A DNA stretch of 64,000 nt from a virus. The position numbers were made by a program, and so were the translations under genes. Of this stretch, positions 16,626 through 54,038 are shown piece after piece. The DNA is taken from the IMG/VR virus record IMGVR_UViG_3300044846_005433, positions 1 through 64,000 of that record; one strand, 5' to 3'. The notes under the pieces were generated by a model. That model saw only the letters and a list, made by a program, of their open reading frames with translations. It did no database searches and was not told the DNA's origin. Each line of letters opens with the position of its first letter. Position 1 is the stretch's first letter.

Positions 16626-19027
<2,402 letters not shown>

Positions 19028-19055
19028 TCACGGCCATTTTTATGCAACTTTAATA

Positions 19056-19083
19056 AAAAGAGACAGCCCGCGCTGTCTCTTTT
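19056..19083 (+). terminator. Intrinsic terminator after groEL
   Basis: A 12-bp perfect stem (AAAAGAGACAGC / GCTGTCTCTTTT) with loop CCGC, ending in T residues. It closes the operon that begins at uvsE, just before a late promoter-like element. Confidence 0.85.
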
Positions 19084-19088
19084 GCATT

Positions 19089-19100
19089 TAATAAATAATC
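19089..19100 (+). promoter_or_regulatory. Putative late promoter element
   Basis: TAATAAATAATC lies 22 nt before the TTG start of the 1,503-residue protein and directly after the groEL terminator. Core and spacing match the elements upstream of minus-strand virion genes. Confidence 0.5.
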
Positions 19101-19121
19101 CTATACAAATAATCCTTTTTC

Positions 19122-22100
19122 TTGTCTTATTCAATACTAGACATTCTAATAAATGAAGTAGCAAATGCCCTTGGAATAACTCCAGACGAGGTAAAGAACC
19201 GATTTACCCAAGAACAGCTTAATGATTTACTAAATAATTCATTGTGCACTCCGCTTGGAGATACTGGAGTACCTTTTGCCTCTACTGAAATTCCATGTGA
19301 TGATCTTGCGGTGCCAGATTTATTACCTCCAATTGATGTAAATGTTGAAGTTCCAAAATCTGATCCAACCAAGGTACAAAAGTGTATTGATAACCTTGAG
19401 GAGACTAATAAAATAATTGAAGCTCAAATTGAGCTTTATAATCAACATCGAATCCTATTAGATAAGTTAGTCGAATATCGAGACAACTATGCAATAATCG
19501 CAATCTACTATCAAGAACGAGCAAATGAAGCTGCTCGAATACTTGGCGAATTTGGTCCTCTTATTACTGAACTTCGTCGACTTGAAACTCTCAAAGCATC
19601 TCTCGCTACTGAACTTTCAACTCGACAAACTGCATTGACTGCTGCTCAAAATGCATATAGTCAATTTTCAAGCACTGCAAATCAAACCGCTGTTCTTGCC
19701 GCTTATAATTTAGTCAACGATACTAAAGCTGCAATCGACCAGAATGCTAAAAATATTGATACACAAAATGCAAAGCTAACAACTGAGGAACAAAAATTTC
19801 CAATTTTTAGCAATCAACTATATCGAGACGTTTTAAATAACCTAAATAATTCAGAATATATTGCAGGTTATCTTAAAACTCTATATGATGATATTTTTAC
19901 TACCTCTGAAATTAATAGCATTAGCCAACAAGTTGAAGCCTATTCAGAAGGCGTCATTTTAAGAGGATTTGGAGATGCCCCAAACAATCTTACCGAAGTA
20001 TTTCAAAATAGATATGTTAAGCTTGATTTACAGATTCCAACAATTGATTATATTCGTACTACCAAGGAGAAATTTAATAAAGAAAACGGCGAGTCATACC
20101 AAGAAACTTTAGACTATCTTATTCGAAAGAGTCCATTACTTGAAAAGACTTCTTTCTTTGAAAACACTAACAATTTTATTCTTACTAATTTTCCATTAGA
20201 GAATAGAGGATTGCCCACTGGGACAATATATCAAAACTATTATAATTGGTTCGAGGACCCAGTAAATAGATTCTTTTCATTAGAAGAAAGAGGGCTTACT
20301 ACTAATATTGCGCTAGTTGATCCTAATCTAAAGGGTACTGGTTCTGAAACAAAGAAAGAAAATAATGCTGACTATTATATTCAAAATATTAATACTCTAC
20401 AGAATTTTTATAATGAGTTTGATAGCCGATTTGAAATCAGAAAAGCTGAACAACGTGCAAAGATAATTGACACTGCACAAAATGCAATTCGTACAACTAT
20501 GAAGTTGATTGCAAAAAGAGAAATTACAGTAATACTTGCTCTTTCAAACGTAAATAAATTTCTTCCTGCTGAGAGCGCGACTTTAGAAACTGCCATTCAA
20601 AAATTAAATCGAGAAAACGGAGAAGCCATTCAAAAGTTAGCTGATCTTGATAGTGAAATCTCTAGAATAAAACAGCGTGTATCTGAACTTAAACCCGATC
20701 CAGCAAAGATAAAAACTCTCTTAAAAACTAAGAGTCCAGAGTGTTTTGACAATATTGATAAAGAGGTTAGTGACTGTAGCGAAACAAAAGGTCTATTAGG
20801 GTCTGACCCATTTTTTACAAAAACTATTGGGGGAGTAGATCCTACTCTACCTAATATGAATCAAATGTGTTATTGGATTGAGTTTGCAAAAATTGCAACC
20901 CTGGTTGGATTATTACCAATTCCAAATGCAACTGCTCCACCACAATTACGATATTGGCCAGTTGGCCTAACGATCCCTTATCCAGGCGGATTAATTAAAA
21001 TCCCTTTACCGATTATATGGATACCGCTTGTTGCAATTTCAACACCACTAGGTAGTGTCGTTCTATTTTTAACAATTAATGGAATCTTTATTTCACCAGT
21101 TGTATTTTTTGTTTCAAGCACAGGATTTAAACAACATATTCTTACAGTAAAAGGTCCATCTAAACAATTTGGTTATACTGCAGAGGATGCGTCAATTAAA
21201 CCTGGAATTCAAGTACCAGCCTCTTTGCTTGCTGCTAAAGCAAAAGCCAATCGATTATTAAATGCACCAAATTTTGGTCTCTCGCCAGAAGAATTAATTC
21301 AACAGCAGAGACAACAAAATATTCTTAGCGCAAAAGAGGCATCTGCCAATAGAACAGGTAACGAAAATCAGCAAGCTAAAGTAAAAAGAGAAAAGGCTAA
21401 TTTTGAAAAAGCAAAAGATGATCGACTTAAATCTGGAGAAGAAAAACTTGCAGAGCTTCTTGATAAGGGTGAATCTGTAAAAGATATAATTGATGATACT
21501 AAAAAGAGTCTCCTAAATCGGATTGATGAATTAGGAAAACCTGCACTCTCCGCCTCAAACAAACTTAAAGATAAAATCGCAGCACGTCGTGCACAATTAT
21601 TGGAAGAGTTGAAGGGTGCACTAGTTGAGGGTGACGATGCTAAGATCGATGGGATACGTGCAAAGTTAGGCGAAGAGGGAGTAGACATGTCTGCTAAAAT
21701 TCAAGCAGTAAAAGACGATGCGATGGCATATTTCAATAAACTGAAATTTCCAAAAATCACAATTCCAAAAGATACTTCAACAATTGACCCTAAGCTTAAT
21801 GCAATACAAGAATTAGTACTTAAGGTTGCAGATTTTTCAAGCATTTCAGGCACGCAATTCTTTTCAAAAGACGACTCTAAAGTTCAAAAGTTAATTACTC
21901 GACAAATTGCAAAAAGCAAAGATAAAGTAAAATCTGCTATCTCTTCAGTTGCAGCAATCGATGGAACAATAGATCTTGAAAAGGAACCTGAAAAAATAAA
22001 AGCAGCACTAAAGAAAATTAATAAGACTCTTATTGATGATCTTACTGGAGCTGGCGAAGTTCCTAGTATTTCTGGAATCCAAAAGGAAATTAAAGAGGTT

Positions 22101-27925: not shown

Positions 27926-27937
27926 GATAAATAATAC
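27926..27937 (+). promoter_or_regulatory. Putative late promoter element
   Basis: GATAAATAATAC lies right after the nrdA terminator and ends 23 nt before the ATG at 27961. It matches the minus-strand virion gene elements and suggests that the next two genes are expressed late. Confidence 0.5.
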
Positions 27938-27960: not shown

Positions 27961-28458
27961 ATGAAAAAACACATAAAACCATACTCAGCATTTGTTCTTG
28001 AACAAGACATGGGCCTAGGCGTGCCTGCTCCAGGCATGCCAGCCGCAGGTGCAGTAAAAAAGGAAAAACCTTTACTTTTCATCTTTATTGATGATTTAGA
28101 AACAGACGGTACCCATATGCGTCGTTATCCAGATGGAAGCAAATCAATTGATTTTCCTTCATATTCAGTTACCCCTACTGAGATCACCGATTGGGCAAAG
28201 AAAAATATCCTAGTCAACGATAACAATAAACTAACTGATACCGTCTTAGATCTTCGCAGAAAGAATTTAGTTAATATTGTCAAAGGTGATAAAGTAAATA
28301 TCTCAGACGAAGATATTCCATTTATTGAAAAACTAAGACAAGCATTATCTACTGATATTTTCGGTAAAAGAGAGCCAGACGTAAATGTAATTTTCACAAA
28401 AGGCGGACTTCCGACAACTGAAGAAATAAGTGTTACTTTCATAAAATATAAAAAGTAA
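27961..28458 (+). CDS. Putative capsid-targeted protein, unknown function
   Basis: This 165-residue protein starts MKKHIKPYSAFVLEQDMG. The segment KPYSAFVLEQ resembles the T4 capsid-targeting sequence of internal proteins (MKTYQEFIAE) and ends in V-L-E, a plausible prohead-protease site. A Pro/Gly/Ala-rich linker follows (GVPAPGMPAAGAV), then a compact domain with KPLLFIFIDDLETDG and a mixed alpha/beta C-terminus. It is preceded by a late promoter-like element and overlaps the next tagged gene by one base. The enzymatic role of the main domain is not recognised. Confidence 0.5.
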   Translation: MKKHIKPYSAFVLEQDMGLGVPAPGMPAAGAVKKEKPLLFIFIDDLETDGTHMRRYPDGSKSIDFPSYSVTPTEITDWAKKNILVNDNNKLTDTVLDLRRKNLVNIVKGDKVNISDEDIPFIEKLRQALSTDIFGKREPDVNVIFTKGGLPTTEEISVTFIKYKK

Positions 28459-29207
28459 TGTTAAAGTCATTTTCCCAATTTATTAACGAATCCGAAAATA
28501 CTCGAGAAGATTTTATTAAGGACCTTGCTCTAAAACTTTCACAAAAGATTCGTGCAACTAGATCTGCTGAATCTGAAGACTATGAAACAGCTAGCGGAAT
28601 GGAGTTTAAAGAACCATTTGAATTTGATTTAACACTTGAATTTAGAAGAGATTCTAGATTTGAACCTAAGGTAGATTCTCATTTTCATGGATTACCATGG
28701 GAAAATATTAATTACGGAAAGGACGGTTATGCAATTGATGCAAATACCATAGTAAATAATAGAGGACTATCGATTCCTAAGATTATAATTACAGTAGTCC
28801 TTAATCCAAATGAAGAACCTCATCTATATAGTAAATTATATGCACGAATCGTTGACATTTTAACACACGAATTAAACCACGTAGAACAAATAGGTTTAGA
28901 AACGGACCCATTTACTGAAAATCCATCGTCTAAAGAAGAACGTGAAGCGGCAAAGAGAAACTTTAAGTACTTTTTAATGAAAGACGAAATGGAATCGATG
29001 ATCGAGGGTATGGAAGCTAGATCCAAGGTGCTAGATATTCCACTAGACTATGTTTTTACTGATTACTTAAGTACATTTGTTCAATCTAAGTACATTACAC
29101 CAGAAGAATACTCTCAAGTTATGCAGCAATGGGTAAAATATGCGCTGGAGAGATACCCAGATACCTCTTTTTCTAAAAATGTTGATAAAATAGTGAATTC
29201 GATATAA
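28458..29207 (+). CDS. HExxH zinc metallopeptidase with capsid-targeting-like N-terminus
   Basis: This 249-residue protein has the zincin motif HELNHVEQ (His137, Glu138, His141) in a helix after a beta strand (IIITVVLNPNE). The further-downstream Glu residues in KDEMESMIEGMEARS could supply the third ligand. The N-terminus MLKSFSQFINESENT closely parallels the T4 internal-protein tag MKTYQEFIAEA, including a possible cleavage after I-N-E. Together these suggest a peptidase packaged in the head and delivered with the DNA, or one acting in head maturation. The fold family is not identified. It is coupled to the upstream tagged gene. Confidence 0.6.
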   Translation: MLKSFSQFINESENTREDFIKDLALKLSQKIRATRSAESEDYETASGMEFKEPFEFDLTLEFRRDSRFEPKVDSHFHGLPWENINYGKDGYAIDANTIVNNRGLSIPKIIITVVLNPNEEPHLYSKLYARIVDILTHELNHVEQIGLETDPFTENPSSKEEREAAKRNFKYFLMKDEMESMIEGMEARSKVLDIPLDYVFTDYLSTFVQSKYITPEEYSQVMQQWVKYALERYPDTSFSKNVDKIVNSI

Positions 29208-29251: not shown

Positions 29252-29524
29252 ATGAATCAATTTGAAAAACTTAAGGAAGAAGTAGCAGCAACACAAGCAG
29301 CGATCTTTGATCCAATTAATGCACTTCTTGCTTCAGCGGAAGAAGATGCTCAAAAGTACTATGGCAAAGGCGTTCGTAGCGCTGGAAATCGTCTTAAGAA
29401 GAAAATGCAAGAGATCAGAAAAACAATTAAACATCCTGCAGTTAAGACTCAGATGACTGGAATCCAAAATTCTGCAAAAGACTTACGCCAAACTTTAGTT
29501 GAAGAAAGTAAAGTTAAAGCATAA
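29252..29524 (+). CDS. Histone H1/Hc1-like DNA-binding protein
   Basis: This 90-residue basic protein has the core LLASAEEDAQKYYGKGVRSAGNR followed by LKKKMQEIRKTIK. Short Hc1-type H1-like proteins of Bacteroidota share the pattern D-A-x-K-[FY]-Y-x-K-G-x-x-[SA]-A-G-x-R and then a Lys/Arg helix. It is somewhat longer than those (about 60 residues), with an extra C-terminal helix. It could condense or coat phage or host DNA. It has its own promoter element and terminator, which implies separate and possibly strong expression. This gene is the best single clue to the host phylum. Confidence 0.72.
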   Translation: MNQFEKLKEEVAATQAAIFDPINALLASAEEDAQKYYGKGVRSAGNRLKKKMQEIRKTIKHPAVKTQMTGIQNSAKDLRQTLVEESKVKA

Positions 29525-52366: not shown

Positions 52367-52580
52367 AAATAGGATCTATAGTAGAATCGGTAGATGATTC
52401 TAATTGGAAAATAGCGCATGATGATAATATCAATCCTGCAAAAGGTGTAAATTCGGATATATCAAAAAAGGAAAAGGTCAACGTTATGCTGACCTTTTTA
52501 AAAATGAGTCTTATTTAGTGACTCCTAAGAAATTAGTTTATTCAATGCCTAGTGGAGATAAGCGTGAAGTTGAACTTTAG
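52363..52580 (+). pseudogene. Frameshifted small gene
   Basis: From ATG 52363 (overlapping the upstream stop as ATGA) the frame reads MKIGSIVESVDDSNWKIAHD and continues to about residue 30, then closes at 52518. The adjacent frame (-1 relative to the start frame) gives GYIKKGKGQRYADLFKNES and YLVTPKKLVYSMPSGDKREV to a stop at 52580, which abuts the convergent gene exactly. Both parts look like one small beta-rich protein split by an indel near 52440-52455. A real mutation, a sequencing error or programmed frameshifting are all possible. Confidence 0.45.
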
Positions 52581-53449
52581 TATTCGTCTTCTTCCTCTTC
52601 GTCTTCTTCAGTCTCAAAAGATTTTAACAATCTTTCAGCCGCTTTTACACTAGTCGTATCTGTTGGAGCTTCTTCTTCCTCTTCTTCAAATTCGTCTTCT
52701 TCTTTTTCACGAGGTTCGTTAAATCTATAGAAGTCATCTTCTCCACCGTCAGTATCTTCTTCCCAATCTTCCATGTCCTCAGTTGGTTCGCTTGAGTTTG
52801 GTTCAAAGATCTTTTTGTATTTCGTGTCATCCATTACTGGAGCATCTGGCATAATGTACAACTTTCTTGCTTTAACATCAACAAAAGCAACCAAATCACC
52901 ATCTGCATCTAGATAATCTACTCGAGATCCGTCTTTGCTTCTATAAAAGCTATCAAAATCAATTCGTGCTTGCATTAACTTATCTTCAGCATCGCCGATT
53001 GCATCACCATCGCTTTTTCCACGTAATCCCATTTTAGTCGCATCATCTGGATTTACTCCCATTGACTCTGCTTGGTCATAATATTCATTAACGAATTGTT
53101 TAAATGAAGTATGCGACAGTCCTTCGTTTGCAGCCTTTCCAACCATTACTACTGGAATACCCATGTGATCGTAAGAATCAGGATAGTTCATTGGTTTCTT
53201 CTTTTCTTGCTTATATACAAGATCATTGCTCATGGCTTTGTAGGTAGGGTTATACACCTCATGCTTAAACGCTGGGTGGCGATCTACCACTCTTTGAAAT
53301 CCATCTAATTTTGGATTATCATTTACCTTTTTACCGCTTTTATCACGGTACATTTTTGCAGAGCTAGGTCCACCGAATCCCGGTTTTTTAAGATCCATGT
53401 AGTTATCAAAACTCATAATATCTCGACGATGTACATTAAACATTTCCAT
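52577..53449 (-). CDS. Acidic late protein, putative prohead core/scaffold
   Basis: I choose ATG 53449 (290 residues), 19 nt after the tail tube stop. A longer frame from 53545 would overlap the tube gene by 77 nt. The N-terminal half is basic to neutral (MDLKKPGFGGPSSAKMYRDK). The middle has SFKQFVNEYYDQAES, which resembles the tags on other late proteins here. The C-terminal about 75 residues are extremely acidic (EKEEDEFEEEEEEAP; ending EEEEDEY). Acidity and location after the tail tube gene suit a prohead core or scaffold component. No family match is claimed. Confidence 0.5.
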   Translation of the reverse strand: MEMFNVHRRDIMSFDNYMDLKKPGFGGPSSAKMYRDKSGKKVNDNPKLDGFQRVVDRHPAFKHEVYNPTYKAMSNDLVYKQEKKKPMNYPDSYDHMGIPVVMVGKAANEGLSHTSFKQFVNEYYDQAESMGVNPDDATKMGLRGKSDGDAIGDAEDKLMQARIDFDSFYRSKDGSRVDYLDADGDLVAFVDVKARKLYIMPDAPVMDDTKYKKIFEPNSSEPTEDMEDWEEDTDGGEDDFYRFNEPREKEEDEFEEEEEEAPTDTTSVKAAERLLKSFETEEDEEEEDEY

Positions 53450-53468
53450 TTCTATAATAGTATTTTTA

Positions 53469-54038
53469 TTAAACGCGGATTTCTCCAATACGAGTTTCTT
53501 TCCAAGCATCTGCTCTAAATGTAGCAGTAACTTCATATAGACCATTTGCAGTATAGTTTAAGTCCATTGGAGTTAACCCGCCGTTTGGAATACATGGAGT
53601 AAATCTAAACTCTCTGAAAATATCACCAGCTTTATTGAATACTGCTACGTAAATTTGACCATAGTAGTCTTTCTTTAACCCTTGTCTGCCAGTCAATGGA
53701 TCGTATGCAAGATCAAACCATCCTCTTAAGATGTTATAGATATACATATTATTTTCTTCATTTAAGTTGACAGAAAACTTAATACCTAAATCTGCAATTG
53801 TCTCTTTTGGAATTGCTCCAGAGTAAGAACGTTTTGCAAACTTATAAGTTTGAGTAACAGTCTCAGGTGCAGTTAACTCTGGCAAACCTTTGATCTCCAT
53901 AACGTGCTCAACTAGTAAGTCAACATTATCTGTAATGCTTGCAGGAGGTGTAATAACTACTTCGAACTGGTTTAAGAAAACAGGTTCGTAATAATTTGTT
54001 GCTGCTCTTGAATTATCCCAATGTGGTAAACCGGCCAT
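53469..54038 (-). CDS. 19: Tail tube protein, T4 gp19-like
   Basis: This 189-residue protein forms the inner tube of the contractile tail. Typical features are FLNQFEVVITPPASI, the helix-strand segment LLVEHVMEIKGLPEL, SVNLNEENNMYIYNILRGWF-type beta-hairpin and helix, and a C-terminal GLYEVTATFRADAWKE strand that closes the beta-barrel ring. The length fits gp19 (163) with small insertions. A late promoter-like element lies about 20 nt upstream. The sheath gene is separate, 17 kb to the left, unlike T4 where 18 and 19 are adjacent. Confidence 0.88.
   Translation of the reverse strand: MAGLPHWDNSRAATNYYEPVFLNQFEVVITPPASITDNVDLLVEHVMEIKGLPELTAPETVTQTYKFAKRSYSGAIPKETIADLGIKFSVNLNEENNMYIYNILRGWFDLAYDPLTGRQGLKKDYYGQIYVAVFNKAGDIFREFRFTPCIPNGGLTPMDLNYTANGLYEVTATFRADAWKETRIGEIRV

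Follow-up and report, generated by a model that had tools for sequence, protein, structure and literature searches.

Two adjacent genes in a virus genome fragment encode proteins whose first residues resemble the capsid-targeting sequences (CTSs) of phage T4, which raises the question of whether these proteins are loaded into the head and what they would do there. The CTSs of T4 have been known for decades; to our knowledge, their binding partner within the core is not settled. The window analyzed here comprises 64,000 nucleotides of a 67,142-bp virus record, itself a fragment, that holds replication genes, GroEL/GroES, and tail genes; across the 67,142 bp, genes for a portal, an S77 protease, and a major capsid protein were looked for and not found. 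As judged by NrdA, the nearest named phages were flavobacterial, with immuto at 59%. In addition, a baseplate-region protein was common to the record, pT24, PAU, MaF61, Lak phages, and uncultured phages of 460-735 kb.

Gene layout and N-terminal tags

ORF1 (27961..28458, plus strand; 165 aa) and ORF2 (28458..29207, plus strand; 249 aa) share one base within TAATG, and both lie downstream of nrdB/nrdA on the plus strand. The ORF1 protein was found to consist of an N-terminal tag, a disordered linker, and an alpha/beta domain, which its AlphaFold model placed at residues 8-17 (tag helix), 17-33 (low confidence or disordered), and 38-162, respectively; a PDB fold search with this model returned nothing significant. 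ORF2 encodes a tagged protein predicted to be a zincin metallopeptidase (model pLDDT 86.4, pTM 0.86). Directly after ORF2, a small protein encoded at 29252-29524 of the window matched the Hc1 histone-like family PF07432 (7e-11).

The ORF1 protein begins MKKHIKPYSAFVLE/Q, with the core KPYSAFVLE/Q (the slash marks the cut site, here a predicted one), and its tag YSAFVLE (27982..28002, plus strand) is predicted to be cut after Glu14, before Gln15. The ORF2 protein begins MLKSFSQFINE/S, and its tag FSQFINE (28470..28490, plus strand) is predicted to be cut after Glu11, before Ser12. Both tags fit [FY]xx[FY][IV]xE and, at all four mapped positions, share residue classes and spacing with T4 IPIII, namely an aromatic residue at 4, Phe at 7, a hydrophobic residue at 8, and Glu at 10 in IPIII numbering. 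In genetic studies of IPIII (MKTYQEFIAE/A), residues 4 and 7 were assigned to targeting, and residues 8 and 10 to processing; with Asp at position 10, targeting still took place whereas processing was blocked (PMC9026906). A record-wide scan for [FY]xx[FYWH][ILV]xE at N-terminal positions 4-12 of 69 ORFs, whose starts came from a simple longest-ORF caller so that some tags may be missed, returned exactly ORF1 and ORF2; in the same scan, NrdA, NrdB, GroEL, the helicases, and the SSB-like protein of the window were all without the tag. The original prediction thus proved correct as to the position and sequence of both N-termini, and the whole-proteome search found no match beyond these two. The count of two against 0.22 expected (p = 0.02) is weak taken alone, and the evidence for the tag is strong because it is conserved across relatives.

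As a positive control, the stricter pattern [FY]xx[FYW][ILV]xE at N-terminal positions of T4 picked IPII, IPIII, 61.1, and 61.4, and inside gp23 it landed on FGSFLTE/A, which is the gp23 maturation site. The CTS-like N-termini of T4 61.1 (MKTFKEFIKED, 18966-19130) and 61.4 (MTRKYVKWIAED, 20112-20411) may mark unrecognized internal head proteins.

A third copy of the motif, SFKQFVNE (53084..53107, minus strand), was located internally, at residue 147 of an ORF with an acidic C-terminus (52577-53545, minus strand), and is kept in the relative G012 as CTSFRKFVNEQ. It is possibly an internal processing site, and the ORF may encode a head protein that the prohead protease cuts internally.

Late promoter element

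A T4-type late promoter element, GATAAATA (27926..27933, plus strand), was identified with a distance of 35 nt to ORF1. Both strands of the 64 kb together contain only seven [TG]ATAAATA sites; three of these precede, by 28-35 nt, ORF1, the gene for the tail sheath, and a cluster at 55.4 kb that looks structural (simulated P = 5e-5). The T4-like elements at 27926 and upstream of 36200 and 55382 (the latter two on the minus strand) thus keep a consistent spacing, although this phage is far removed from T4. Of the 41 distinct ORF1 relatives described below, 27 have NATAAATA upstream of the gene, at a distance of 16-56 nt. Across genomes, the association of the late element with tagged genes (19/63 versus 158/1127, p = 0.001) was real but modest, and was absent in G020. 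The element at -35, together with its few and well-placed copies, supports the predicted late expression of ORF1 and ORF2.

Conservation of the tag among relatives

Relatives were gathered via the tail sheath gene of the window, which gave 78 viral loci, and 40 records were searched; a locus search with ORF2 had yielded near-identical copies only, to which a profile search added only the immuto copy. ORF1 and ORF2 were each found in 34 of the 40 records and were adjacent in nearly all; in G034 they are about 1.9 kb apart. The ORF1 tag was present in all 41 distinct relatives, at identities down to 22%, and an alignment of 35 sequences showed Glu14 to be invariant, as one of five invariant columns, and Gln15 to be nearly so. 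The ORF2 tag was present in 32 of 39 distinct relatives; six of the seven untagged proteins belong to the most distant lineage, and the ORF2 start in a further record, G017, is also without a tag, so untagged versions of ORF2 do occur. Across the tagged relatives, motif positions 1, 4, 5, and 7 are held and the x positions drift. G027 has one more tagged gene, its third at this locus (MLNFNQFINES), which is immediately upstream of ORF1 and is itself preceded by a GATAAATA element.

Tag use across phage proteomes

The expected number of N-terminal tags was taken from the rate of the motif in the remainder of the same proteomes. By this measure, the large relatives were enriched, with 11 tags against 0.31 expected in G029, 8 against 0.48 in G027, 8 against 0.55 in G012, 14 against 0.70 in G033, 22 against 0.99 in G020, and 20 against 1.59 in a 636-kb phage with the scaffold repeats described below (400 kb scanned); p values reached 3e-22. 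No enrichment was observed in three phages without the repeats, namely Lak-A1 (400 kb, code 15; 1 against 0.91), pT24 (0 against 0.91), and immuto (1 against 0.43). The original prediction had named a tag common in unrelated cytoplasmic proteins as grounds for abandoning it; the tag was indeed frequent in the relatives' proteomes, and was concentrated at extreme N-termini. In pT24, whose protease-scaffold is without 14-residue repeats, a variant [VI]xxY[ILV]xE occurred at 13 N-termini against 2.6 expected (L172-L176), a lead only, as the pattern was picked post hoc.

The tagged proteins of the large relatives include a Nudix hydrolase (PF00293, 2e-12), the only family with a clear enzyme annotation in the set of tagged proteins that was scanned, one protein with HEIGH and a weak resemblance to M48/M78, and another with HELTH. 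G020 carries about 13 tagged paralogues scattered in the genome (L216-L228), starting MKHIKLFEQFISE or MKHIKLFEQFISEE... Two of these gave weak LRR-like hits, and the set has the look of an expanded internal-protein family.

Scaffold repeats fused to the prohead protease

In G012 (L152:12877-14856) and G033 (156284-158314), a gene encoding an S77 prohead protease-scaffold fusion was found to precede the major capsid gene. Its protease domain matched PF03420 (E 1.2e-10) and S80 (E 7.9e-7), and its scaffold part is a tandem array of 9-10 units of 14 residues, YSEYIKENLNNSI being one example. The fusion was present in 19 of the 40 related records, two of them incomplete, and a regular-expression search counted chains of 8-11 units in 16 complete fusions and 6 units in G020. 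Furthermore, three uncultured phages (636, 642, and 735 kb) possess it, with about 12 repeats that are close to perfect; among the annotated isolates covered, no phage with a repeat scaffold was identified. What repeats is the tag motif itself, [YF][ST]x[YFH][ILV][AS]E, with Glu at position 7 in 162 of 180 units, and the S77-type protease of the relatives would accordingly be specific for phi-x-Glu.

A position-specific scoring matrix (PSSM) trained on the scaffold repeats alone was then ranked against N-termini. It placed ORF2 first and ORF1 second of 69 ORFs in the window, and IPIII first and IPII second of 267 ORFs in T4; column-permuted matrices equaled these rankings in 3 of 400 and 16 of 400 trials, respectively. 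The scores of the two window tags were themselves modest, at 5.0 and 3.2 of a maximum of 22. Counts above a threshold were dropped, since N-termini scoring >6.5 numbered 7 in G012, 6 in G033, 4 in T4, and 5 in pT24; such poor discrimination arises because Tyr is favored in scaffolds and Phe in cargo, and the rank test is the fair use of the matrix.

The capsid-targeting role first proposed for the two N-termini is backed by conservation, by the excess of the tag at N-termini in the proteomes of relatives, by the T4 control, and by the identity of the tag with the protease-scaffold repeat, and the assignment of the tag as a capsid-targeting signal is strongly supported at the sequence level.

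ORF2 as a predicted metallopeptidase

The ORF2 protein contains HELNHVEQ at residues 137-144 (28866..28889, plus strand), in which His137 and His141 are predicted zinc ligands and Glu138 the predicted catalytic residue; Glu177 (28986..28988, plus strand), in helix 175-192 of the model, is the predicted third ligand. An HExxH helix with a downstream Glu ligand is the gluzincin motif, and D133, H137, E138, H141, and E177 were invariant in 35 ORF2 sequences, the immuto copy included, to about 22% identity. In the structural model, whose tag residues are of low confidence, an N-terminal helix is followed by strands, helix 123-145 with HELNH, and helix 175-192 with E177, and the zincins of phage polyvalent proteins show the same order of elements (PMC5512222).

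Searches of Pfam zincin families with the 35 ORF2 members gave no match, which leaves ORF2 outside the curated peptidase families covered, and PDB sequence and fold searches returned nothing significant. Sub-threshold Pfam/PHROGs hits of ORF1 and ORF2 (Tcp10_C, 0.0008; DUF2025; Phage_XkdX, 0.006) were judged to be chance. A full-length structural match to ORF2 was found in A0A6J5SV68 from an uncultured Caudovirales phage (E 1.8e-21, TM 0.88, 33% identity); this protein is unannotated, so it adds no function to ORF2. The original prediction of a zinc metallopeptidase was therefore sustained by the invariant motif residues and the zincin-like order of elements, and found no backing in the profile and fold comparisons. 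We predict from sequence and model that ORF2 is a divergent gluzincin, and consider a zincin fold highly probable.

ORF2 is a single domain, short of the two or more effector domains per chain that characterize a polyvalent protein, and its homologue in immuto is multidomain. This homologue, the nearest named one, forms the C-terminus of gp088 (L008:7131-9854), a 907-aa protein annotated as NadR that appears, from motifs, the record annotation, and weak Pfam hits, to have nucleotidyltransferase-like and NadR-like regions and two HExxH segments. Judging by its start, MKTTSFSDFIES, the ORF2-like segment seems to be what is left of a once separate, tagged protein that was joined in frame, and gp088 is likely to be a packaged polyvalent protein.

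Proposed mechanism and alternatives

We propose that ORF1 and ORF2 would be late-expressed internal head proteins, in which the first 11-14 residues would form a helix that targets the capsid by imitating a single 14-residue unit of the scaffold. Tag and scaffold repeats would assemble together within the growing prohead, and the scaffold-linked protease would cut after Glu in scaffold and cargo alike. Early in infection, ORF2 would most likely act as a zinc protease on a host protein of defense or regulation; ORF1, whose gene overlaps, would be co-delivered with it or serve as its partner, a role suggested because the two genes are near-invariantly adjacent. Tag conservation, N-terminal enrichment, repeat-tag identity, joint presence, the late element, and the zincin residues are the sequence-based part of this scheme, to which binding, packaging, cleavage, ejection, proteolysis, and the host target are added as what we infer.

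That the tag directs packaging is very probable. Mimicry of the scaffold by the tag is likely. The precedents of T4 internal proteins and of packaged polyvalent proteins make injection with the genome plausible, and on balance we lean toward ORF2 being an injected effector. The explanation as a whole, which joins tagged late cargo, scaffold mimicry, and an injected protease, appears quite likely; it counts against it that the virus's own scaffold and protease would lie, unseen, outside the 67-kb fragment.

The near-invariant adjacency of the genes would also suit a toxin-like peptidase with its partner or inhibitor, in which the ORF1 tag packages the complex and the ORF2 tag is dispensable, as would the fact that ORF1 is always tagged and ORF2 untagged in one lineage and G017; most ORF2 proteins, however, retain a well-conserved tag of their own, and we hold this possibility to be unlikely. 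The tag might instead target the prohead as proposed, with ORF2 processing core or cargo proteins during head assembly rather than acting after injection. A packaged peptidase would be active amid the other internal proteins, and the processing of polyvalent proteins in the head has been suggested as a task of phage zincins (PMC5512222). Against such a role, relatives conserve a dedicated fusion of S77 protease and scaffold whose repeats provide Glu-containing sites of their own, and ORF2 was not found in the distant G020, LR756504, and LR756500, all of which keep the protease-scaffold, so that it seems decidedly unlikely. Head maturation by ORF2, offered in the original prediction beside injection, is disfavored because relatives carry this separate S77 prohead protease.

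It is very improbable that the N-terminal helix guides nascent proteins elsewhere, for instance to the GroEL/GroES of the phage, or is a membrane or degradation signal, rather than serving packaging. The T4 gp23 N-terminus has been reported to direct proteins to GroEL (in a reference cited in PMC10052503), and GroEL and GroES genes lie in the window; however, the Glu at the cleavage position is invariant, the tag matches scaffold repeats and T4 CTSs, and immuto has an annotated GroEL with neither repeats nor tag enrichment. Chance or a generic resemblance, in which short amphipathic helices at the N-terminus happen to end in Glu and have no common function, could be entertained for so short a motif and the modest count in the window, but is scarcely credible given the family-wide conservation and the N-terminal enrichment counts.

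For a large group of giant phages, up to 735 kb, our preferred reading of the tag as a scaffold unit leads to a picture that we regard as reasonably likely: the scaffold, joined to the maturation protease, would consist of capsid-targeting units in tandem, and one copy of the unit would address to the head each of many cargo proteins of unrelated kinds, a modular label that is both assembly contact and release site. The equality of tag and scaffold unit offers, from sequence, a candidate answer to the question of the CTS partner, the fusion being a candidate in this group. Injected-protein candidates of giant phages could be listed from genome sequence alone, and hypothetical proteins, including a Nudix enzyme, several putative metallopeptidases, and paralogue arrays, become candidates for head cargo. 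The tag may also serve as a compact label for loading foreign proteins into phage heads. In the open-access literature, we found no account of a protease-scaffold of CTS-like repeats or of a tag equal to a scaffold unit, and both are provisionally considered new.

Comparison with known systems

The zincin-like domain is described as the commonest in phage polyvalent proteins, some of which are probably carried inside heads (PMC5512222). As modeled, ORF2 resembles these zincins in its N-terminal helix, beta sheet, HExxH helix, and following helix with a Glu ligand (PMC5512222), and differs from them in being a single domain with its own tag and without a Pfam family match.

The tags resemble the CTSs of T4 IPI-IPIII (MKTYQEFIAE/A, cut by gp21) in their N-terminal place, length of about 10-14 residues, aromatic-x-x-Phe-Ile/Val-x-Glu pattern, and late signal, whereas the cargo domains of the T4 internal proteins are unrelated to ORF1 and ORF2. 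In contrast to the scaffold of the relatives, with its tandem tag-like units fused to the protease, T4 gp22 showed no tag-like repeats, though T4 has tags; such repeats are thus not needed for CTS function, and the fused repeat scaffold is a variant. The protease domain of the relatives matches both S77 (PF03420; T4 gp21) and S80 of giant phages, and the major capsid gene follows directly; unlike in those families, it is fused C-terminally to tandem 14-residue repeats with a phi-x-Glu site.
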